From Physcia stellaris (taxonomy: Eukaryota > Ascomycota > Lecanoromycetes > Caliciales > Physciaceae), in contig JABSSW010000025.1 of NCBI GenBank assembly GCA_018902385.1, forward strand, positions 310,001 through 374,000: a DNA stretch of 64,000 bases. The letters are read 5' to 3'. The position numbers were made by a program, and so were the translations under genes. The first letter of the stretch is position 1. Every line of letters begins with the position of its first letter. Below are positions 12,470 through 47,817 of this stretch, piece after piece. Below the pieces are notes generated by a model. The model did no database searches, was not told where the DNA came from, and saw nothing but the letters and a program-made list of their open reading frames with translations.

Positions 12470-14149
12470 TCACTGCCCAAAAGCCAGACACTCGTCCAGC
12501 AGACTCCGCAGCTGCATCCGGTCTGCAGTCCCCCCTCCTTCCCAGCCCCAGCTATCGTCTCCATCCCCCGGGAAATGGGTGCCATTGACTCCATTCGTTA
12601 ACGGCGCCGCACCGTTGATTTTAGGTGCCAGTTCATCCTCCTCCTCCTCCTCCTCCTCGTCAGGATAACTCCCCCACCCTTCCAACGTGCCCTCCTCCCA
12701 CGCACTAACCACCCTCCCCACCACAGCTTTACACTGCCCAAACCCAACCTCTCCTCTCCGGAGCGCGAATTTCATATCGCCCATATTCAGCGGGCGGCGG
12801 ATCCAGCGGTCGGATTCCTTATCCTGCTCGCTTTCCTTCGCTTTTTCGCGCTCTCGTGTCCTGGTCGTCTTCGCTGCGCTACCGCTGGGAGTCCGGATAC
12901 TGCTCAGACTACTATGCCCCACGTTGCTCCGCGTGCGCACCAGGATGGCGCCCATCACGTCTTTGATGTACTGCTCCAGCGCGACGGAGAGGTATTCGGC
13001 GCAGGGCGGCGTGCTGCCGTTTGGGAGCGATTCTTCGTAGCAGATTGGCGTCAGGCGCGCGGAGATGTGCTCCGTGTCCGGGAATTCGGCGGTGAAGGAG
13101 GAGAGGGGGAGGGTGTAGTGCCGGAGTATGGCTGGTTCCCAGTCTGTTTAGGGGAGAAGGGGGGTCAGCTTTAGATAGATTGAGGGTTTAGATGGGGGAT
13201 AGATTTTTGAGTAAAAATGTAAAGGAATAGAATAGATGGAGATGAGTCAATCGGGATGAGACCCTGAGCGGAGATGGTATCTGCGTTCAGGTAGACGCTG
13301 GTGGAGGGAGATGTACTTGTTTTGTTCAGGCCGCCTGCGCTGGCGGGGACGGAGTCGGGGAGCTTGATTTGTTTCGAGCTTTGCGATTCGTAGATTGCGT
13401 TGGCCACGGCTTGGTTCTGGGTGTTGAAAATATCTGTCTGTATGTCCAGTCCCAGAGTCAGCGTCATGCAATACGTGCCACTCCACACCTCCACACTCTA
13501 GCAAACAATCTCCTGTAATTTAGACCAGGACAGCTCGTCCGCCTGTGACGACTTACTTCAGGGATCTCTTTCAATCTCCGCCTGTCTCTCGCCGGCATCG
13601 CCATCACCTCCATCTTAAGTCTCTGCTCGGCCGCATCCCCCACCACAGGCTTCGAGAGCATCGTGGGCTTGTCGTTCGCGGAGACCCATGGCGCCACACC
13701 TTGCTCTGGGTGATCTCTTGTGACATTGCCCAAGATTGCAGAAATGAGCTGGTTATGAAGACGTTCGATGTTTGGGTCTGTGGAGAACAAATGTCCAATT
13801 TGTAGGTAGAGCTCATTTTGCGTGAGCTGGCCTGTTACAACAAAATACTTGGTTAGCATCCGCAGTAACGCGATCCCCATTTCAAGCTCGAGGGCTTTCC
13901 CCACAGCTTCTACGCACCGAGTATGAACAAGCTCGTAGCCTCTTTGTACTTTCCCCATTGATCCCCTATGGCAGCTTTTAAGCTAGTGTACAGGGGTTCG
14001 AGGTCGATGCGCGGGACCGAGTTAGACGCTTTTGGAGTCTTCTGAGGCGGTGCAACGGTTGCCGTACTATTCTTGCTAAGTACCAAGGTGCTGGAAGGCT
14101 GCGATATTGAGTCCTGGCGACTTAAGGCTGCGGGGTCGATGTCCGGCAT
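12470..14149 (-). CDS. SAGA complex subunit Ada1/Hfi1-like
   Basis: This encodes a structural subunit of the SAGA transcription co-activator, which acts in the nucleus. The first exon starts [14 protein letters not shown] and carries a Ser/Thr-rich leader followed by [20 protein letters not shown]. The second exon has the Ada1 core ([20 protein letters not shown] and [20 protein letters not shown]). Later exons contain the conserved [19 protein letters not shown], then [20 protein letters not shown] and [15 protein letters not shown], the histone-fold-like region. The tail has an uninterrupted run of nine Glu (about 12,632-12,658) and ends [11 protein letters not shown] infer about five exons. 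Junctions near 13,900, 13,835 and 13,550 show GT-AG ends. The exact junctions between 13,500 and 13,140 are less certain. Confidence 0.8.
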
Positions 14150-14695
14150 GATGGGGGGTGTGCGACACCCAGCAGGATGCGCCTGGAGGTTCTAGGGCCT
14201 CGGACGCCGCATTTGTCGCTGTGGGTGATAAGATGACACTTGAAATGCGGGACAGAGATGCTTCTGGTGATGTAGCTTCGGTGTTGAGGCTATGGGGTGA
14301 TGGTCCACGTTTGCGGTTTGTTGGCGGGCTGAGAGGCTGGATAGAACTAGGGCAGAGGCCGGAAGCGCATCGCGGATCAAAGACGCCTTCAAAGAGAAGT
14401 GGCACAAAAGTGCAATCATGGAGTAAATATGACAAGAATCCGTTAACGCTGATATTTAAGCAAAATTCTGGTTCCTTCATTTCGACTGTTTCTAGAAAAT
14501 TACAGACAGCTGATGCCATTGCTATGCGATGAGCCCCCTTTTCCCAAGTCGTCCATCTATAACATCTCATCGATTCTCAACAACGGAGTCACATTCGTCC
14601 ATCCCAATTCAACTCTGGCATACCAAATACCATCTATAATGCTTGTGTTCACTGGTTCGGATGATACTAGCTACACATAGAGCAGGATTAGACTG
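14150..14695. other. Promoter region of the ada1-like gene and 3' flank of its neighbour
   Basis: About 550 bp upstream of the Ada1 start and downstream of the ArAE-like stop. Open frames cross it on both strands but they have low-quality composition and overlap each other. I take them as chance. Confidence 0.5.
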
Positions 14696-17600
14696 CTATT
14701 GCAGCTTGAGTCTATCCTCATTGAGAACACCGAAGAGCTTCTCAATCTCTCGGCTGACTTCAGCGATTTGTGTCGATAACTGCCCAGTAACAAGCGCATA
14801 AGCATACAACAATGCGAAGTCTTCGTCTTTAGCCCCGGGCTTCTCCTTTCGATATTTGAATATCTTTGCAAGCAGCCTGTCCCTGGCATGTTCTGTATTC
14901 GGCAACGCTTCGTTTAGGGGGTACTCTAACTTCATGGAAGAGGCCAGAACTTGGAGGAGATGACTGATTCTGGCGCGTAAATGATCTCGCTCACTGCTGG
15001 TATACCGAAGAATCTCGATTTCTCCTTTCGAAGCCGGGTCCTTGGATATAACAACGTTCATTGCATGGAAGGCGTCCAACATGCTATGAGTACCTTTTAA
15101 GATTCGTCCATACGCTGCATTCGGGAAGGGTCCCCGCAGATCCCATTCTGACGACGCTGCACCGTGTAATTTCTCCAATTGCGCAAGGAAATTATGGAGT
15201 TCGAATTCCTCTCTGATGTCCATATATTCAACGCTCTGAGCTGAATCTCCTTCAAGAAGTGCATTCACAGGATCCCGCTTCCAGATGAGGCCCATCCTTA
15301 GCCAAAGCAAGCTCAAGCCATCTTTGAACTTTCGTCTTGCACTGATTGGCCATATAAATCGGGTTATAATCAAGCCCCAAAGACATCCAGTGAGGACAGC
15401 AACAACGCGATGCAGCGTAATATTTGTGATCAGTGGATCTATCCCACCTTCGTCGTTGTCGTCGTCAAGGTCTTTGACGGATAAGGAGTACGCATATAGA
15501 GCGGAAAGGTTGTAGGTCAGCATTATAAAACGACCCATCGGGCCTTTGCCTTGCGCTACGATGATGTACGCCGTCCAGAGAGCCATGAGCCATCCAATTG
15601 CTGCCAAAGCATATGGATTGCCCTGGGAGATAACCCATGCAACTATCGCACAGACGGCTCCGATACATGTACCGGCGAAACGAGCGAAGCCAGTCGTGTT
15701 GGAAGCACCAATGGTCATCGAGCAAACCAGCATGTAAGAGAGTAAACCCCATTCACCACGCCAGTGTTGATAGAAAGGGCGACTTGGAGGGAGAAAGGAG
15801 GGAAGAGCGTACAGTGCGGCTCCCACGCCAACTTTGATAGCAAACTTCGTGTCATCGCGGCGGAAGACACCTAATGATTTCCACAACTGATAAGTATATG
15901 AGATAGGTTGTGATTGTGCTTCATCGTCATTGCCAGAACTAATAACCCTATTCGTTGAGTTCGGAATGGATGAAGCGACATCCGTAGTATCGTGATGATT
16001 CACAAGGCTTCGTTGCTCTAATCCAAAGTCAGCCACCCGTCGACGGAAGGTAGAAGAAGAAGGCGAATCCGAGATTCTTACCCGGATCGTTGCCGGCATC
16101 CCCTTTGCCCTTTCTCCTGAAAAACCGCCAGAACCTCAACCAATTCCATGTGCGGCCTTGTGGACGATTCTCGATCTCATCTTTCAAATCTTCCAATAAG
16201 CCCAAGTAGACTTTCATTTCGTTGGCGAAGTCTTGTAATGAAAAGCTGAAATAGCCACAGCTCGCAGCTACTTCTTCAAAGTCAGCTACCGTTTCCATTG
16301 GGCGTTCTGTATTGAGTTCTTTGGTTTTGTAGAGTGCGGACAGTGCTTCTCGCCTTGCTTTGGTGTAGAGCGATACGGCTTCTGATAGACTAGTGCTAAA
16401 ATGGGGATTATAAGCGATGCGATAGTCAGATTCGGACGAGTAAGGAAGCTCGTCTAAAAGTTGCTTCAACGTGACTGCAAGTGATTTCTATAACCCTCGT
16501 GTCAAACCCCAGCCGGGTTACCGTGTGCGAGGAGCTTACCATGGAGGGACCCAGTTGCGAGATGAACCTCGAGAACATATCGGCCGGTGAGTTCGCGGTC
16601 GGCATGTACCTGCTATCGTTCGGAGAGCCTTGTTCTGGACTTGGTGGTAGACTTCCGGCTTCTTCATTGCCCTCTGGAATCTCGTCAATCGATGTCAAAA
16701 TAGCCTGATTATCTGGCTGCGGGGTCGAATTGTCCGACAAGAATGAGAAAGATGAACTTCTCAGTATTGGAGTCCGCACTCCGTTGATTGGTGTTGCTCC
16801 TCCTGCAGCAGTGGACTGCTCGATCAGCAGAAACTGGGTTGAAGCAGCACTCCGAAGCCCGCCGATACTTTGAGCAAGTCTTTGCATACAACTGACCAGT
16901 TGCACTTCGATATGATATTCCCTCTCTCTGCCCATAAAGTATTGCTCATACTTCGCCTCCTTCAAGTTCTTCGATAGGGCTCCAGATACCTTTTTGTATT
17001 TTTCGGACACTCTGTAGAAACTTTGCCTTTCTACCTCAACCTCAGAGCCTGTAAGAAACGCCTGTCATTGATTTCAAGTCAGCGATGCTATCTTCAGATA
17101 GGCATTGAGGACTCAGCATCGAACGCTGCCGCTCTACAAAACTGGGATTTACATGAAGGCTGTGGAACGAAAACGGATAGGAAAGACCTACCCTAGTGAT
17201 CATGGCTATCATGTCGCCGAAGGAGTCTGTCACAGAAATCATACTTTCGCGTAGCTCTACTCGAGCTGAGATTGGACTTATAATAAAAGAAACTGCAGTG
17301 GTAGCAAATACACCCATGAGAATCATTTTTAAAACCATCGTCACTTTGTCGTCCGAGAATTGTGCCGCTTGTACGGCACCTTCTTTGGTTAAAACAGTGA
17401 TTATGGCCAGGCTGGTTAAGGAGCACGAGATGTTGACCAACGGATGTCCCAGGTGTTGTTTCACCCATCCCACGAATCCGAGGCCCCCACCGCAGAAGAC
17501 AATTAGAACAATCAGATGGCCGAGCCACAGCAGATCTAACGTGCGCGCAAAGAATATGGACACACCCATACTTGAGAAGCATACAATCACCGCGTAGATA

Positions 17601-29581: not shown

Positions 29582-29823
29582 TCTGTGTTTGTCAGCGGAA
29601 ACGCATAGGTAGAGAAAGATTCAAGTGGTCGTACAAAGGGGCGTGTTGAAGAGTCTGCATATCTCGAACCATGTCGAACCTAGTGAATCTTATGACCGTC
29701 TCCCCGTCTCTCATCGGCCCCCACCTCTTCCCCACCCTCATCCTCCTTCTCCGACCCTTCCCCTTCCCAAAAAAAACCCCCTCTGGCCCTACATCAGGAA
29801 AACAAAAATGGAATTTTGCAATG
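29582..29823. other. Short intergenic, P450 to tRNA-Leu
   Basis: Contains C-rich tracts near 29,700-29,790 and nothing coding. A-runs at 29,800-29,808 would act as T-runs, and hence Pol III terminators, for the minus-strand tRNA. Confidence 0.4.
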
Positions 29824-29905
29824 TGTCAAGTGTGAGGTTCGAACTCACGCATCTTTCGATAGTAGAGCTTAAATCTACCGCCTTAGACCACTCGGCCAAC
29901 TTGAC
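29824..29905 (-). tRNA. tRNA-Leu (anticodon TAA)
   Basis: An 82-base intronless gene. The acceptor arm pairs GTCAAGT with ACTTGAC, with discriminator A. The A box is TGGCCGAGTGG and the B box GTTCGAACC. The anticodon stem GTAGA/TCTAC encloses the loop TTTAAGC, giving anticodon TAA. A long variable arm (TATCGAAAGATG) is typical of class II tRNA-Leu. Confidence 0.95.
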
Positions 29906-29920
29906 TTAGGGTTAGGGTTA
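29906..29920 (+). repeat. Interstitial telomere-like repeat (TTAGGG)
   Basis: TTAGGGTTAGGGTTA begins at the base directly after the 5' end of the minus-strand tRNA-Leu, and the AT-rich island starts within a few bases on its other side. Two and a half units of the standard Pezizomycotina telomere repeat are present. Confidence 0.7.
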
Positions 29921-30294
29921 TACCTAGGTTCAACATTTCACACTTCTCTACTCACAAGAATTTTCATATATATTTAAAGACAATTACTGCATTAACATCT
30001 TCTTTTACTATTTTAACATTTCGAGATTTGCTAAATTGACATTTTCTTTTCGAAACGCGCATTCGACGCTCGCGCAACGTATAAAAATCTATTTGAAAAT
30101 TTTTATTCAGATGTTTAACAATCAATCGTCGTTTGAAATTCAAATTTTTCAAAAATTCAACGAAAACGAAAAAATTGAAAAAGAAAAATTAGAAAAAATC
30201 GCTGATTGCAATAAACGTAAAAACAGAAAAAAATGCGATTAAAACATATTAGAAATATTCAAAAAAATTTTTCGAACAATTTAATTTTTGTTTC

Positions 30295-30335
30295 ATATAT
30301 ATTGCAAGAAATCATATGATTCATATGATTTTTTT
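30295..30335. repeat. Short palindromes in AT-rich island 1
   Basis: Contains AAATCATATGATTCATATGATTT-like symmetry centred near 30,323 (arms AAATCATATGA and TCATATGATTT). Its role is unknown. It may be part of a subterminal hairpin region. Confidence 0.4.
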
Positions 30336-30514
30336 CGATCGTGAAAATTTCATGAAACAGATTTTCTGTATGCCTTGTCATGTTAGTCAATAAGAAGTAT
30401 AATAGCAACATTAAAAGTCTTTTGACGTGTCAGATTCAGACGATTTATTCGCTTTTTTTTCATTCACGTACGCGTTGTTGTTGTTGTTGTAAAATCGAAA
30501 CATTTTGCTTTTCA

Positions 30515-31730
30515 TGTTTCGTCGTAATGAAAAATATAAACTTCGTCGAAATCTTTGATGACAATTTATAACTACAACAATCGTTGAAAATTTCATTTTT
30601 TTTGTTGCAATGCGATGACTAGTTTTTTATTACGACATTAAAAAACAACGATATTTGACGTTTCGAAACATCGTTATATCGAAATTCAATTGAGTCATCA
30701 CGATACTTTTTCAATTGAACGACAAACGATTTCGCAAGATTTTGCGTATGAATAAAAGAATTTTCAAACAAATGTTTGATTTCATTGAAAACGATTTCGT
30801 TTTTCATTTCAACGATACGAACAACGTTCAAATTTTTGTCAAGCATCAATTGATCATTGCATTGCATCGATTGAATCATCACGAAATTGATGATAATTTT
30901 CAGAATTGCGCTATTTTATGAAATGTATTCGAAAATCATATTCACAACTGTACGAAACGTATAGTGCTTGCTCTTTGCAAAAAAAAAAACGAATTTGTGA
31001 AATGATCGAATGTCAACAAAAAAAGATTTGAAAACATGAAAAATGACGCGCGTGCAAATTTCATTGATTGTGTAAATAAAACGAATGATACAAACATTGT
31101 ATTGAATAAAAAATCTGATGACAAATACGACGACGAACATTTTTTCAATCGAAAAAAACGTTATGTCATGAACTTGTTAACGATTTGCGATTTTAACAGA
31201 ATGTTTACGTACATGTTCAACGATTGACTCAATTCTCAACATAACGTTCGAGTTTTTGCGTTTTTCTCACTCAATAAACGATTCACGAAGTACTTCGCAA
31301 ATAACGAGTATATTTTTGCAAACAATGCGTACGCATGTTGCGATCATCTTATTTTTTCGTACAAGAATTTTGCAATTTTCAAACTTGTCAACAAGAAATT
31401 CAATCGCAAATTATCGAACATTCGAATCGACATCGAACACGTATTTGATATGTTAAAAAATCGTTGAAACAATTTGATCGAATTTCGTTTTTACTTATTC
31501 AACGAAAAACAATACGAATATATGATTCATGAATTATCGTTTGCGTCGTTTTTCATAACATTCTTTTAACATTGAACGATATCTGAAACATCGAAAACGA
31601 TTGATGAATTGAAAAAAAAAACACGAAAAAAATTTGTTAATAATTCAAACGAAACAAACGCGAACTGATATGAATAAACAAAAAATTTTGAAAAATATTA
31701 TGTTCGATATTAAATTTTCAACGTCGTTTT
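30515..31730 (+). pseudogene. Harbinger (DDE_Tnp_4) transposase remnant
   Basis: In one plus-strand frame the order of family motifs is kept. First come KRFRKILRMNKRIFKQMFDF, ENDFVFHF and KHQLIIALHRLNHH, then TNDTNIVLNKKSDDKYDDEH and FFNRKKRYVMNLLTICDFNR (catalytic core with the first Asp in a GT/ND context). NEYIFANNAYACCDHLI follows (second Asp position, now Asn), and RKLSNIRIDIEHVFDMLKNR (the Glu of IEH). Several stops lie where relatives have Trp (TGG to TGA), and conserved Gly and Pro codons have become Asp, Leu or Ser. These are the changes expected from GG to GA and CC to TC mutation. The element is not functional as read. Confidence 0.82.
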
Positions 31731-33948
31731 AAAATCGACGTTTGATTAAAATAAAAATCAACGTATGTTTTGAAATTTTTATTGCAAAAATGAACGAATT
31801 GAAATTGATATTGAATTCGATATGTTGCGAAAAAAAAAAAAAAAAAATGTCGAAAACTTCACGAAAATCGATTGCGATCGAATAACATAAAAAAAAAAAA
31901 CGTGTAATAATTGCATTTAACGTTGTTTTTAAAACTTTTTCATCGAAAATTTTAAATTTTTTTAACAAAAAAGTGATGATGTTTCATTACAAAATTTAAC
32001 GTTTTTGACAGTAAAAAATTTGCGAAATTTAAAAATTTTCTCAAAATTTTCCAAAAATGTACAATTTATCATAATCAAATTAACAACAACAACAACGACG
32101 ACGTGTACAACGACAACGATGAATTTCGAATGTATCAAATTAACAAACTAATTAACTATATGTATAAAAATCGCAAATTATTAATATTAAAACGATTGAA
32201 ACGCGATGTAATTCGCAAATTGAAATATCGATTTCAACGATAAAAACTGTATTGAGATTTCGCAATCTGAATCAATTTTTCGATTTTTGCAATAAAAACA
32301 AAAACACACGTTTATGTAATTCAATGCAAATTTTCGATAGTTTTTATTGCATTGAATAATAGTCATTCAAGTTTTGATTATCGAAAAAGAAATATGCAAA
32401 TTTTTTTTTTCTTTTCATTTTTTTTGTTTTTCATCGCGATCAATTGTATACGCATTTGAAACATGCGTTTTTCGTGTTGTTAATTTTGTTTTTTGATTTT
32501 TCGATCGCGTTGAAACGTTTCGCGATTCAATTGCAATCGACGTTTTCGCAATTTCGTTTCATTTTGAATCATTGCAAATTTAATTCGTTTGTTTTTTATT
32601 TCAATCAACGCGTCGACGATCGAACGTTGTTTTGATTGAATTTTGTTTTTTTTTTGTCGCGTTTTTTTTCGTTGTCGTTTTCAATTTCGTATGTTTTTTT
32701 GATGCGCTTTTTGAATTTTTTGAAAAATTTCGCTTGAATAAAAATTTTGACAAAAGTTTTGTCGAATGCAAAAACAGCGACAGAAATTGAAACAAAGATT
32801 TTGACGAAAACAAAAAACTTCGAAAATTCGATTTTGACGATTGAAATGACGACGTTTTTTGCGAATTTCGTCGTTTTGAATACAAATGTTTGAACAACAA
32901 AAAAAAAAAATTATCGTGAATTAAATCGTGAAAATTAATAAAATTTTCATTCACGTTTTTTGTCAATTGCGCATCGTTGAATTCGAAACGAACAACGAAT
33001 TTTTGAATTTTCGTTTTGATTTCGCGTTCAATACGAATTTTCATTTTCATTGCGTTGTTGATTTTTTCATCGATTTCGTCAAATAATGCGATCGAAACAA
33101 AATTTTTTTTTGATTGAATAAAATTTCAAAACAATTTTTCGTCGATATCATCAACGACGTTGTTTTCAATGACGTTGTTATCGTTTTTTTCGATTGTTTC
33201 ATCGTTTGAATCAATGAATTTGAAATTTTGTCGATTCGATTGTTCAAATTCAAAAAAAAAAATCGAAATGACGTTCGATTTTTCATTCATGATTTTTTCG
33301 AATTCGTAATATCAAAAAATTTTATTTAAAATGATTGATTTAATGATAAACGTTTCAACAATATGTTTTTGATTTTGCGATGATTGATTATGATCATCAA
33401 AATCAATATTTCAATTCGTGAAATCGATTTTGTTTTTTTGATTTTTGAACATATTCATTATATGAACAAATTTTTCAACGAATTTTTGCGAAATGATTTC
33501 AAAAAATACGATTTTCAAATTCAATTCATCGAAACATCGTTTCGCATTTTTTATTTTGATTTTTTTCAAATAATAATTGACATTATCGCATCGATCAATT
33601 TTGAAATTTCGTCGATTGAATCATTCAACAATAAAAATCACGATTTTCGAAAATCATTTGATACGATTTTGAATAAATTGAAATTCGACGATTTCAATCG
33701 CTGCTTGAATAAATTTTTTGTTGCGAAACATAATGAACAAAAAACGTACGATTTGATACAACAAATGTTTGACAAATTGAATAATTCGATGAATCGTTCA
33801 AATTGTTTGCAAAAAAAAAAAAAACGTGTGAAAAAAATGTTTATTAATTGAAATTAATCAAATTATTCATACAATTAACAACAACAACAACAACGCGTTA
33901 AACGAATATTTCGTGTTCAACGTTAATATTTGCAAATCATATGAAATC

Positions 33949-33996
33949 GTTTTGCAAATAAAATCAAACGAATTCGTTTGATTTTGTTTGCAAAAC
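33949..33996. repeat. 48-bp near-perfect palindrome
   Basis: Centred on GAATTC (33970-33975), with arms GTTTTGCAAATAAAATCAAA and its inverse. Only one base pair is mismatched (T/G against the arm at AAATAAAA versus TTTTGTTT). It lies about 75 bp inside the right edge of AT-rich island 1 and could form a long hairpin. Confidence 0.75.
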
Positions 33997-34070
33997 ATGT
34001 GAATCATGTAATACGAAATTGCGACAAAAACTAATGTGAAAAAAATGTTTCACTCCTCTGTTTGCAATAC

Positions 34071-35546
34071 ATATGGCCCATATGGGACCGAAAAACGAGG
34101 CTTTGAGTACCCCTATTCAATCACATGACTTCGTCTTTTCATATGTAACAGGCCTACAGCAATCATAGCATGGGAGGACTGAAGTTCTGTTGTACAATAA
34201 ATCGAGATCTCGCACGAGAATCTCCATGTTTTACATCAACAATCAATGATATTCTTCGGTATTTCATACTATATTATTCTTTGCGAATCGGAGGTTCCGA
34301 GAATCCCTGAGATAATGGTGTAGAATGGAGGTCTTTTTTCGAAAATCTCTCGATCAACTTGTGAGTATACCAAATCGAACGAAAAGGGGGTGTCAGAATC
34401 GCAAAAAGGGGGTGGTCGGTGCAGTAAAAAACCCTTTGTATAATCCCTTTTGCTAGTTTTCTGGGAAGACCCCGTTATTATACCAAAAACGGATCAATAT
34501 TCGCAAAGGATAGTGGAGTCACTGATGTTGCATGTTTTCCTTGCGAGATCTCAACCACCCCCAACTCATCGTACAGTACCTCAGGCTTCAGTCCCTCACA
34601 AACCCCTTTTCCACTGCCGAAGTCTATCATCAACCGCTCCTCTGTTAGCCTGCGTGGAGTTATCTAAGGCCCACTCCTTGGTGCTGTTATCGAATACTTG
34701 CCAATTCTCCCCCTCCCCCTCGCAAAAGCACGATGCGCGAACTGTGAAAATGTCAAAAAAAATTAAAAAATTCAAGGATGTGAATATGACAGTCGCTGTT
34801 ATATTGCTCTCTCGAGGGAACTTCGGTCGCCTTTTCGTCTTCTCTCTCAAATTCGATATACGAAACCGGTTCACTGACTAGTGGAAACGATAAGATCTGA
34901 TGAAACCGACCATCGATTCCGAGGCGAGTTGTTCGGCTGTGATCATCTCATCTCATTGACTGCCTCTAAACTGAGAATATCACGTACTGTAATCTTTAGC
35001 AGAGATTGCGACACGACAAGGAAGACCGTTTGGTGTTCACTGAATGCTCGGTTGGCTTTTCTGGCGGATTTTATGGAGGAGGGGATAAGTAAAATGCAGG
35101 AGAGGGTGAATCTAAGGGCTTCGGATGTACTAGTATCATTCGATTTCATGGCTAACTTGTTCGTGTTTTCAGTGAAGTGGAACGAGGCCTGAAAATAATA
35201 GTATACGAAACAGGGTTTTGATCGTCAGGCATGATTGCCGGGCATCTTCTGCTCTAGAAGTGTTCCGCGGTCGATATATAACACCAACAAACATGGTTAA
35301 GCGTGCTATCCTTTGCTGGGGTTTCCACGTTCGATAAACAATGGAATCTAGCTAAAGAGAGAAAATAGTTGGTCTGTCGATTACAAGCCAAGCTCAGGAT
35401 CCTCGTTCGACACAATCCATCAGCGCGCCATTGATAATGCCATACTTTAAAGAGCGACAGAAAAGCAGCAAAAACGAACGTCGGGTAACTTCACAATGGC
35501 CTTAATACTCCTTCGATCCCACCACAGCGATATCGGCTCCAGAGAT
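34071..35546. other. Gene-free stretch right of AT island 1
   Basis: Normal base composition returns near 34,070. Several short open frames occur (for example 34,450-34,881) but none shows a motif or splice logic. No RNA gene or repeat is seen. Confidence 0.5.
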
Positions 35547-44711: not shown

Positions 44712-45422
44712 AATCTAAGCTGGTGAGCAAGTGTCCAGCACTGTCACCACTAGTAGCCCAGCTCTTGTTGACCTCTCAACCTTGTTGAAAACTTATCGAT
44801 AGTGACTGCAGAGGGCGAGCGTGGGAATGAGGATGTACGGAGGGGTTGACGTTTGTATATCGCGTTATCATTAGGCCGTAAAGTCGTCGATTTTGAAAGG
44901 ATCTAGATTTAGGTGAGATCTGTTGATTGTCTTGTGCAAAGGTAGGTCGCTTTGCTAGAGTATGAGTCGATTAGGATGGCAGACGTCGTTGCATTAGACG
45001 CATAAAATCCAAGATGTATTCACCCTGTTGTGTGCCTTGAAGTCACAGCGGCTGTAACACCTGTGGTTTGAGCTAGTGCGGTGTTTGATGATTGGGAAGG
45101 GCTCAGCCAAGCAAACAAACAGTGGCGTTGAGGGGTAACCAGGAGTAATGTTGAGCGACGAAAGCCAAACGCTCGGAAAAGTCGAAGTAATTTGAGGAAA
45201 GACGGCTATTCTATGTTGCTTTGGGAGAATCAAAGAAATGTGATTGTAGCAAAATCCATTATTATTGACTGTTTTGGATGTAAACTTCCTTTCTGCCCTC
45301 TGGAGTGTCCCAAGGTTCTAGGCGGCAGTAGCGGCGAAGATCCCTCCGCTACGCGTCAAGATTTCCCCCCGAGCAACCAACTAAAGGATCGCTTAAGCCA
45401 TCCACTCTCCATGTCATGCATC
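44712..45422. other. Gene-free stretch between NIPA gene and AT island 2
   Basis: Promoter side of the NIPA-type gene. Near 45,335-45,360 a segment (GGCGAAGATCCCTCCGCTA) loosely resembles the transposon end that begins at 45,425. It may be an older copy of such an end. Confidence 0.4.
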
Positions 45423-45424
45423 TA

Positions 45425-45501
45425 GCCGAAGGTCAAGACCCTCCTGCGCTAGTCGCTTGAAGGAACTCATCTCAAAAAATAATCATCTCAAAAAATCAAA
45501 A
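45425..45501 (+). repeat. Left terminal inverted repeat of the pogo-type element
   Basis: Begins GCCGAAGGTCAAGACCCTCC. It keeps more of the GG and CC doublets than the right copy. Its GACCCTCCTGCGCTA is also found at 6358-6372, which supports this as the original state. Confidence 0.88.
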
Positions 45502-45542
45502 CATCGAAATTTCATTTTTTATTTTACAACAATTTCATCATC

Positions 45543-47400
45543 ATGACGAAAGTTAATTCCGAATATCACGCACGTGAAAAGCGTTATTTAAAAATCATTG
45601 AAAATTGAATTAACGACGAATTTGATTCAATTGCAAAATGCGTTCGTTATCATCATTTCAAATCGAAAAATTTTCAGAAACGCGTCAACGAAAACGATTC
45701 GAAATTCATTCGATTTCAATCACAAAATCGTTTTAATGAAAATCAAAAATTTCGTTATTTTATTATTTGAAACGTTTCGATGATATGAACATGTCATCGA
45801 TTTCGAAATTCGTTGTTGAAATTGTCAATTACATTTTGAAACGTGACGATTTCTTGACGATTTTCATAAAAAAAAATTGATTTACACGTTTTTTCAAACG
45901 CAATTCACAATTCAAAAAAATTATTCAACGTTTTCTAAATATCAACAAAAAAAATGTCAATTTCGAAATCACGTTGAAAAAATATTTCGACAAATTACAA
46001 AAATTCGTGAATGAATTGAGCATACAATTCGATGATATGTGAAACATGAACGAAACGAATTTTCGCGTTGATTGTGTCAAAATTCGTGTAATCGTTACAT
46101 TCGATAAAAACAAAAAAAAAAAAAACGTCATATCGAATTCGAATAATCGTGATTATTGCACAGTTGTTGAAATCGTGAAATAAATGTTTCGAATTTCGTT
46201 GCGAAATCGAATTTTAATCATTTTTTGCAATGTCGTTGACGAAATCATATTTTCTGTTTTGATCATGAAAGATGTCAACGTTTTACACAAATGAATCATG
46301 CATAATAAATTCGATAAAAACGTTCGTTTCGAAACATCGTTCAATGATTACAGCAATGACGAATTCGCATTGAAATGAATGAATCATTTTATCGAACACA
46401 TCGAAAAAAACGCAAAAACAAATGAATTTTATTCATTGTAAACGATTTCGAATTTCACATGACGCACGAGTTTTTCGCTTTGATCGATGTTCACGATATC
46501 AAACTGTTCAAATTTTTTGTTCATTTTACACATTTCACTCAGTCGTTGAATGTTGAAATGTTTCAATTATACAAGCAAATTCATGAAAATGTCATTGACA
46601 AAATCATTCGCAATAATAACAGTAAATTTATTCGTTTGAAATTTCTGATCGTTTTGACATTGTTTCGTTCTTTTGCATTTATCAAAAACAATTAAAAACG
46701 CTTGACGTCGCATTGATATATATTTTTTTAATTCTGAAATCGTTTTAAATCTCATACGAAATCGAATATTCGAACGAGCAAACGTTGAAATTGCTCGTTT
46801 TAGTACATTTTCTATGCAAAATTTCGAATATATGAATAAAATTTCGCGTGAATCAACAACAATGCGAAAAACGTTTCGATTTCTGAATTATTTTTATCAA
46901 AAACACGAATTTTACAACATCAATTCATTACATATGCGACGATTCGTCAAAATCACTCGTCGATTGATTTATAGTTTCGAATTTCATACGCGAAATCTTG
47001 ATTTTGCATTGAAAACAATCGTCAAACGCAAAAAACGAACAAATTTTCGAAAATATAAAACATTTACATTCGAATTCATTAGAGCAAAAAGTGCAAATTT
47101 ATGTATATTACAAAAAAACAAAAAACAAGAAAATCGAACAACGCAAAACTCAACGAGAATTTGCAAAAAAACAAAAAAAACAAAACGAAAATCAAAACAA
47201 CGAAAATGACGAAAATTTCGAAAACGTCGAAATCGTCGTGATCGAAACATTGAATATAAATGACGTAAAAAAAATAAAATACGTCAATTTTTATTCGTTT
47301 GTGTTCGAAACGTTTGAAACATTTGTACAAAATTCAAATATCGATGAAAAAAAATCTGAAAAAAAAAAAAAAATTTGAAAACGAAAAGAAAAAATTTCAA
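45543..47400 (+). pseudogene. pogo/Fot1-type transposase remnant
   Basis: The remnant opens at an ATG (45543) with TKVNSEYHAREKRYLKIIEN and FDSIAKCVRYHHFKSKNF, a Psq/CENP-B-type helix-turn-helix start. Further right the NMNETNFRVDC region matches the NMDETGF catalytic block. After it come MTHEFFALIDVHDIKLFKFF and FTHFTQSLNVEMFQLYKQIH, which match the family's HGSH...F..HNI and H.THLLQPLDVGVF blocks. The C-terminal part (46,860-47,210) is basic, as in Fot1 relatives. Many stops are present. Those at expected Trp codons are TGG to TGA. Confidence 0.8.
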
Positions 47401-47737
47401 TTTTTCGAAAAATAATGCGTTTCAACGCATTAATCGCGACGACGAATTATGTCGATTTTTGAAACATTAATACATACATAAAATTATTCAAATCATCAAA
47501 TTTCAATAGAAAATAAATGATTGAATGTGATGTAACGAATTCGAAAAATTTCGATTTCGTCGTGAATTTCGAAAATCAACAATTTCGAAATTCAACATTA
47601 TCATCACTTTTCGATCAATGAATTAATTTTATGTGTATGATTTGTAACGCAAAAAACGAATTTCACAACGACGCAAAAATCAATAGAATCAAAACATTAT
47701 TGCATATGTTATGATATTGCGAAAAAAAACATCTCGA

Positions 47738-47815
47738 TTCTGATTCTTTGAGATGATTATTTCTTTGAGATGAATTTCTTCAAGCGACTAGCGCAGAAGA
47801 ATCTTGATCTTCGGC
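47738..47815 (-). repeat. Right terminal inverted repeat of the pogo-type element
   Basis: Read inward on the minus strand it begins GCCGAAGATCAAGATTCTTC. Compared with the left copy there are eight transitions and one single-base gap. Five transitions fall at CpC (or GpG) and three at CpT (or ApG). None falls at CpA or CpG. Confidence 0.88.
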
Positions 47816-47817
47816 TA

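Follow-up and report, generated by a model that had tools for sequence, protein, structure and literature searches.

Two transposon islands in a stretch of the Physcia stellaris genome (64,000 nucleotides, positions 310,001 to 374,000 of contig JABSSW010000025.1; hereafter the window) are depleted of cytosine before a pyrimidine (CpY) and retain it before a purine. We regard C-to-T mutation specific to CpY as close to certain, and we propose that the islands were probably damaged by a duplication-directed process of the repeat-induced point mutation (RIP) type whose 3'-neighbour preference is reversed. RIP is usually recognised by loss of CpA and gain of TpA. Here C changes to T according to its 3' neighbour in the order CpC > CpT >> CpG, CpA, this rule reaches across the genome, and a duplicated host locus has been targeted besides transposons. 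The assembly comprises 44 Mb in 147 contigs, of which about 0.3 Mb of sequence was read closely; coordinates given without a contig are those of the window, and the features discussed are collected in Table 1.

The signature is most compact at 33061-33180 in island 1, where the original prediction had reported that no CpC, CpT, GpG or ApG remains. Our recount agrees: each of the 17 C is followed by A (8) or G (9), each of the 15 G is preceded by C (9) or T (6), and all four dinucleotides stand at zero. Over 29925-34070 (GC 0.269) the forward strand carries 259 CpA and 246 CpG, with 58 CpT and 3 CpC, and likewise 260 TpG, 43 ApG and a single GpG. Across 1000 base shuffles of the same span, CC averaged 77.5 +/- 7.2 (minimum 55) and GG 72.9 +/- 7.0 (minimum 51), and the means for CT and AG were 206.5 and 201.9. 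The predicted span held at its start, position 29925, and not at its end: mutation stops near 34045, and the sequence from there to 34117 is still repeated elsewhere (loci L009 and L015) despite its retained CpC. Immediately to the left, 29700-29924 has a GC content of 0.507 and 44 CpC on both strands. Island 1 has 31 matches in the genome including itself, the best other copy being 91% identical over 3.5 kb (contig 1, 1535900-1539413); against the copy at L006, transitions make up 246 of the 286 substitutions, with both strands mixed.

Island 2 shows the same pattern, as had been predicted: 45481-47817 holds, on both strands, 2 CpC and 57 CpT but 293 CpA and 300 CpG. Other copies are 93% (contig 7) and 92% (contig 21) identical, and the Pfam DDE_1 match (E 0.032 only) lies under the cut-off. 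When its right terminal inverted repeat is compared with the left one, the differing sites are 5/6 CpC, 3/14 CpT, 0/8 CpA and 0/6 CpG, and the changed base is the first C of CC. Because an internally deleted copy on contig 25 (123232-124233) is little mutated (GC 0.46, as against 0.27 for the window copy), it allows the change to be polarised as C to T. Taking it as the reference, the window copy has lost 82/86 CpC and 97/110 CpT, but only 7/106 CpA and 6/123 CpG. A second alignment of the same pair, in which transitions were allowed for and context was taken from the contig 25 copy alone, gives losses of 85/95, 107/124, 19/139 and 12/119, respectively.

Other copies of the islands also differ mainly at CpC and CpT and not at CpA, which supports the cytosine mutator acting before pyrimidines that the original prediction had invoked. 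Pooling eleven alignments (at least 150 bp at 78% identity or more, a threshold that locus L022 failed), 125/167 CpC and 439/546 CpT sites differ, with 121/1348 CpA and 65/1376 CpG; losses lie on both sides of transposon copy pairs. A milder island (positions 1-2500 of locus L070, contig 10:500000; GC 0.352) has retained C at only 1.3% of positions preceding C and 21% of those preceding T, compared with 64% for A and 52% for G. Because this island is nearly without CpC and has lost about half of its CpT, CpC is mutated first. Positions 2382-2543 of L070 match at least 10 other places at 83-88%.

Genome-wide reach was measured by counting, on both strands, single CpN sites with ten A/T on either side, an approach free of the bias of sampling by similarity to the islands. 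The whole genome holds 12 such CpC and 301 CpT sites, 4497 CpA and 2104 CpG; reversed controls gave 3309 TpC, 1468 ApC and 436 GpC sites. Base composition was followed in 1312 de-duplicated 200-bp tiles, of which the AT-rich ones were mostly recruited by similarity to islands 1 and 2. Before another C, C makes up 38-49% of C/T in tiles of GC 0.42-0.6 and 0-0.3% in tiles of GC below 0.30; the corresponding ranges are 44-54% and 1-8% before T, 54-65% and 34-55% before A, and 39-48% and 35-49% before G. Low GC as such is rejected as the cause, as 25 overlapping 200-bp tiles of GC 0.38-0.42 outside islands keep C before C at 29-35%, and the depletion of low-copy AT-rich DNA that would have spoken against the earlier proposal was not seen in this low-GC DNA. 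One of four unselected 10-kb stretches (L067-L070) contains an island. An artefact of assembly or of simple repeats is unlikely, given that copies on several contigs are concordant and their flanks normal. Among the A/T-flanked CpA and CpG matches listed, there is clustering on contig 1 at about 901-952 kb and 1107-1140 kb, perhaps in centromeric or other large heterochromatin.

A second, slower mutator activity on CpA is likely, because CpA has also been hit in the very AT-rich copy L065 (contig 46, 6000-15900), which relative to island 2 has lost 24/66 CpA and 9/81 CpG. In tiles of GC below 0.22, C makes up 34-39% of C/T before A. L065, together with L058 and L060-L064, is very AT-rich (GC often 0.16-0.24) and has reduced CpA too.

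The rule extends to host DNA. A search with a RID-type cytosine methyltransferase gene of this genome (the EET type, considered below) found decayed relatives with in-frame TGA on contig 41, where a 2.45-kb duplicate of the locus (12790-15239, GC 0.29; L073, L071) pairs with the original on contig 6 (789241-791700, GC 0.48; L074, L001). The two differ by 545 transitions and 65 transversions over 2425 columns. Where the 3' neighbour is identical in both copies, the contig 41 copy has lost 157/159 CpC, 159/289 CpT, 26/294 CpA and 33/175 CpG; with context read from the intact copy regardless, the losses are 240/277, 171/307, 35/318 and 47/223 (pyrimidine versus purine 3' neighbour, Fisher P 2e-82). 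The 5' base has little effect at CpC and CpT, NCC being lost at 58/68 sites after A, 49/55 after C, 63/69 after G and 70/85 after T. The duplicated RID locus is a record of the mutator's spectrum set against the intact original. At CpA sites in the same duplicate, TCA was lost in 3/90 cases and ACA in 14/71. A short RID-like catalytic relic also lies in normal-GC DNA on contig 19 (457335-457478; L072), with 50% identity over 48 residues and one TGA.

Under a strict CpY rule, TGG is the sole possible source of new stop codons, and genes are predicted to be broken by TGG-to-stop changes with CAA, CAG and CGA codons spared. The TGG-to-TGA changes predicted for the transposase of island 1 are borne out by the frame at 30493-31566(+), which has 8 TGA and no TGG, TAA or TAG, and keeps 8 CAA, 1 CAG and 11 CGA. 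If its TGA codons are taken as Trp, the frame gives a match to PF13359 (DDE_Tnp_4, E 5.7e-17), a transposase family by which island 1 is classed as a Harbinger-type DNA transposon. The second broken frame, 34112-32580(-), has no TGG, 25 CAA and 11 CGA; a Pfam search with it gave no match. In a shorter alignment of the RID duplicate, all four TGG had become stops (3 TGA, 1 TAA), as against 0/17 CAA, CAG and CGA.

The usual RIP indices (defined as in PMC2621366 and PMC6714961) miss the damaged DNA because the 3' preference is reversed from the textbook pattern. None of 145 mutated 500-bp island tiles passes; their medians are 0.45 for TpA/ApT and 1.41 for the substrate index, where RIP regions of Neurospora crassa as called by RIPper have a mean product of 1.59 and substrate of 0.44 (PMC6714961). 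Among tiles of GC above 0.42, the RIPCAL pair is satisfied by 11/316 and the stricter RIPper set by 0/316. A CpY/TpY index does separate the two classes, with a median of 0.033 in islands as against 0.904 for tiles whose GC exceeds 0.42. Given that no island tile passes, index-based surveys may report no RIP in fungi of this kind.

As in N. crassa RIP, C-to-T change predominates on both strands of duplicated DNA, here including a host locus, with strong AT gain and with RID and DIM-2 genes in the genome; CpA preference and the usual index values, which are typical but not strictly defining, are absent. The order in N. crassa is CpA>CpT>CpG>CpC (PMC5496416), with CpC last where here it is first. 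Neighbour preference does vary among species: in Trichoderma reesei, CpA is about equal to CpG, and CpC again comes last (PMC5496416). CpT signatures are reported alongside CpA in Magnaporthe oryzae, Botrytis cinerea and Sclerotinia sclerotiorum (PMC4352252), and CpT-to-TpT change is dominant in alignments from RIP-capable fungi (PMC7882544), so that CpT mutation alone is not new. These three species share with P. stellaris the targeting of CpT, and B. cinerea resembles it further in having two RID genes (PMC8399656) and an EET-type RID (PMC6709928); they differ in that CpT is hit together with CpA, and the passages concerned name no CpC signature (PMC4352252). CpC is depleted together with CpA in Stagonospora nodorum (PMC2621366), and double CpC-to-TpT changes accompany classical CpA RIP in Monilinia (PMC8959702). 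Neighbour-specific C-to-T change in transposons is likewise described in Microbotryum and rusts, but there at CpG (TpCpG) and without RID (PMC4352252). A survey of 1239 genomes describes CpA preference as common to RIP-like defences (PMC12543289). The variant described here is new in its specificity, CpC being taken first and CpA spared; the literature searched contained no CpC-first or CpA-sparing RIP. Methylation induced premeiotically (MIP), the reversible methylation without mutation of Ascobolus, does not describe the fixed C-to-T differences between copies.

The check for RID- or DIM-2-like methyltransferases that had been suggested was fruitful. A PF00145 search of the genome found three genes, a count that DNMT5 could escape. 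L002 is of the DIM-2 type, matching 9bap (E 2e-181) and 9baq (E 2.9e-181), which are DIM2 structures (PMC11315935). The other two are RID-type: L003 carries SPPCQ and EQT, and L001, the intact member of the duplicated locus, SPPCQ and EET; they share 40% identity over 174 aligned positions. The EQT motif is reported from N. crassa, Masc1 and Podospora, and EET from B. cinerea and Pseudogymnoascus destructans (PMC6709928); most fungi have one RID, and B. cinerea two (PMC8399656).

We propose a genome defence of RIP type that would turn C into T on both strands where DNA is duplicated and the C precedes a pyrimidine, with CpC being hit ahead of CpT. Its enzyme would be a RID-type cytosine methyltransferase. 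We put forward the EET-type RID, because EET RIDs and CpT signatures overlap in B. cinerea; if the process is RIP, the chances that this enzyme is the CpY mutator are about even, judging by this analogy. It would be the likelier candidate for CpY; the weak, late loss of CpA would then fall to the EQT-type RID or to DIM-2. A broader version of the idea, held more tentatively still, is that the EET-type RID serves solely as a CpY mutator, separate from canonical CpA RIP, that RID branches in filamentous ascomycetes differ in their 3'-neighbour codes, and that the CpY branch took over repeat defence here and mutated the duplicate of its own gene. If the EET-type RID is indeed the CpY mutator, TpA/ApT surveys would overlook fungi that rely on it. 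With EQT and EET RIDs in one genome, a near-absolute CpC rule and the duplicated RID locus, the question of what determines the neighbour preference of RIP becomes testable.

As with RIP, the trigger would be DNA homology and not the state of the chromatin, which we think probable. Several results weigh against it. The genome search found no copy of the left end of island 1, 29925-30267 (a lower bound only), matches to the island starting at 30268; the mutated part of L070 has no long partner, its best non-self matches, again a lower bound, covering 157 bases (88% identity) and 480 bases (67%); and the flanks of the contig 41 duplicate are mutated too, as part of a wider mutated stretch. The 1-kb island 2 derivative on contig 25 is hardly mutated. 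The RID pair is one-sided, contig 6 having lost 5 CpC and 11 CpT and contig 41 250 and 161, whereas N. crassa RIP mutates both copies; its CpG loss, moreover, exceeds its CpA loss. The claim that mutation is confined to repeats is supported only in part: the unmutated tRNA gene and the sharp island ends agree with it, but for the three mutated segments just named the search found no long partner. Such partners may since have diverged or disappeared; alternatively, the trigger may be something other than homology.

Such segments suit a chromatin-directed process, in which DIM-2 or another methyltransferase would methylate CpY in heterochromatin and methylated C would be lost over generations, also mitotically, with homology no trigger. 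We consider this unlikely, though it is the most serious competitor. A DIM-2 gene is present, N. crassa DIM-2 prefers CpT according to a review (PMC13297926), and in Zymoseptoria tritici Dim2 promotes mitotic C-to-T mutation (PMC8016269), a likeness in methyltransferase-dependent change of repeats. That enzyme, however, acts at CpA, with methylation nearly absent at CT (PMC8016269), and CpA is spared here. Islands 1 and 2, moreover, stand isolated in gene-rich DNA, and their boundaries with single-copy DNA are sharp, coinciding with the ends of the repeats or lying slightly within them.

AID/APOBEC-type cytosine deaminases read the 5' neighbour. Editing of single-stranded repeat DNA by such an enzyme would also yield C-to-T change with a strong neighbour preference, but is very improbable: the 5' base carries little weight at CpC and CpT, it is the first C of CC that changes, and strand labels along copies show no grouping in 6/6 sets. 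Control by the 5' neighbour is rejected for CpC and CpT from the terminal repeats and the RID-duplicate trinucleotides, and strand-grouped editing is absent from all six sets. Least credible of all is CpA RIP of the usual kind, or neutral drift towards AT, with a dinucleotide pattern that the elements owe by chance to their initial composition. This reading could draw on the CpA loss in L065 but conflicts with the 99/106 CpA kept relative to the little-mutated island 2 copy, the low median TpA/ApT, the undepleted low-GC DNA outside islands and the like change of a host locus. CpA RIP masked by composition is rejected likewise, from the copy alignments, the polarised island 2 pair and the RIP indices.

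Table 1. Coordinates of the features discussed, in window positions.
Feature	Position	Strand	Remarks
Island 1, mutated Harbinger-type DNA transposon	29925..34045		CpC/CpT lost, CpA/CpG kept
Left end of island 1, mutated	29925..30267		CpC 1 + 0, CpT 16 + 6 (two halves)
Repeat end of island 1, spared from mutation	34046..34117		CpC 11 (both strands)
Broken transposase frame of island 1	30493..31569	+	8 in-frame TGA; no TAA/TAG before end
Second broken frame of island 1	32580..34112	-	10 in-frame TGA; no TAA/TAG before end
tRNA-Leu (anticodon taa), unmutated, adjoining island 1; boundary control	29823..29905	-	ARAGORN
Island 2, mutated 2.4-kb transposon with terminal inverted repeats	45419..47817		pogo/Fot1-like by eye only
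Left terminal inverted repeat of island 2, outer part, unmutated	45419..45480	+	GC 0.484, CpC 6 (both strands)
Right terminal inverted repeat of island 2, mutated relative to left	47722..47816	-	site differences

Two minor observations concern the surroundings. The genome contains no match to the universal 5.8S primer word, so its ribosomal DNA is either altered or missing from the assembly. A telomere-like sequence, TTAGGGTTAGGGTTA, is sandwiched directly between tRNA-Leu and island 1 at 29906-29920.

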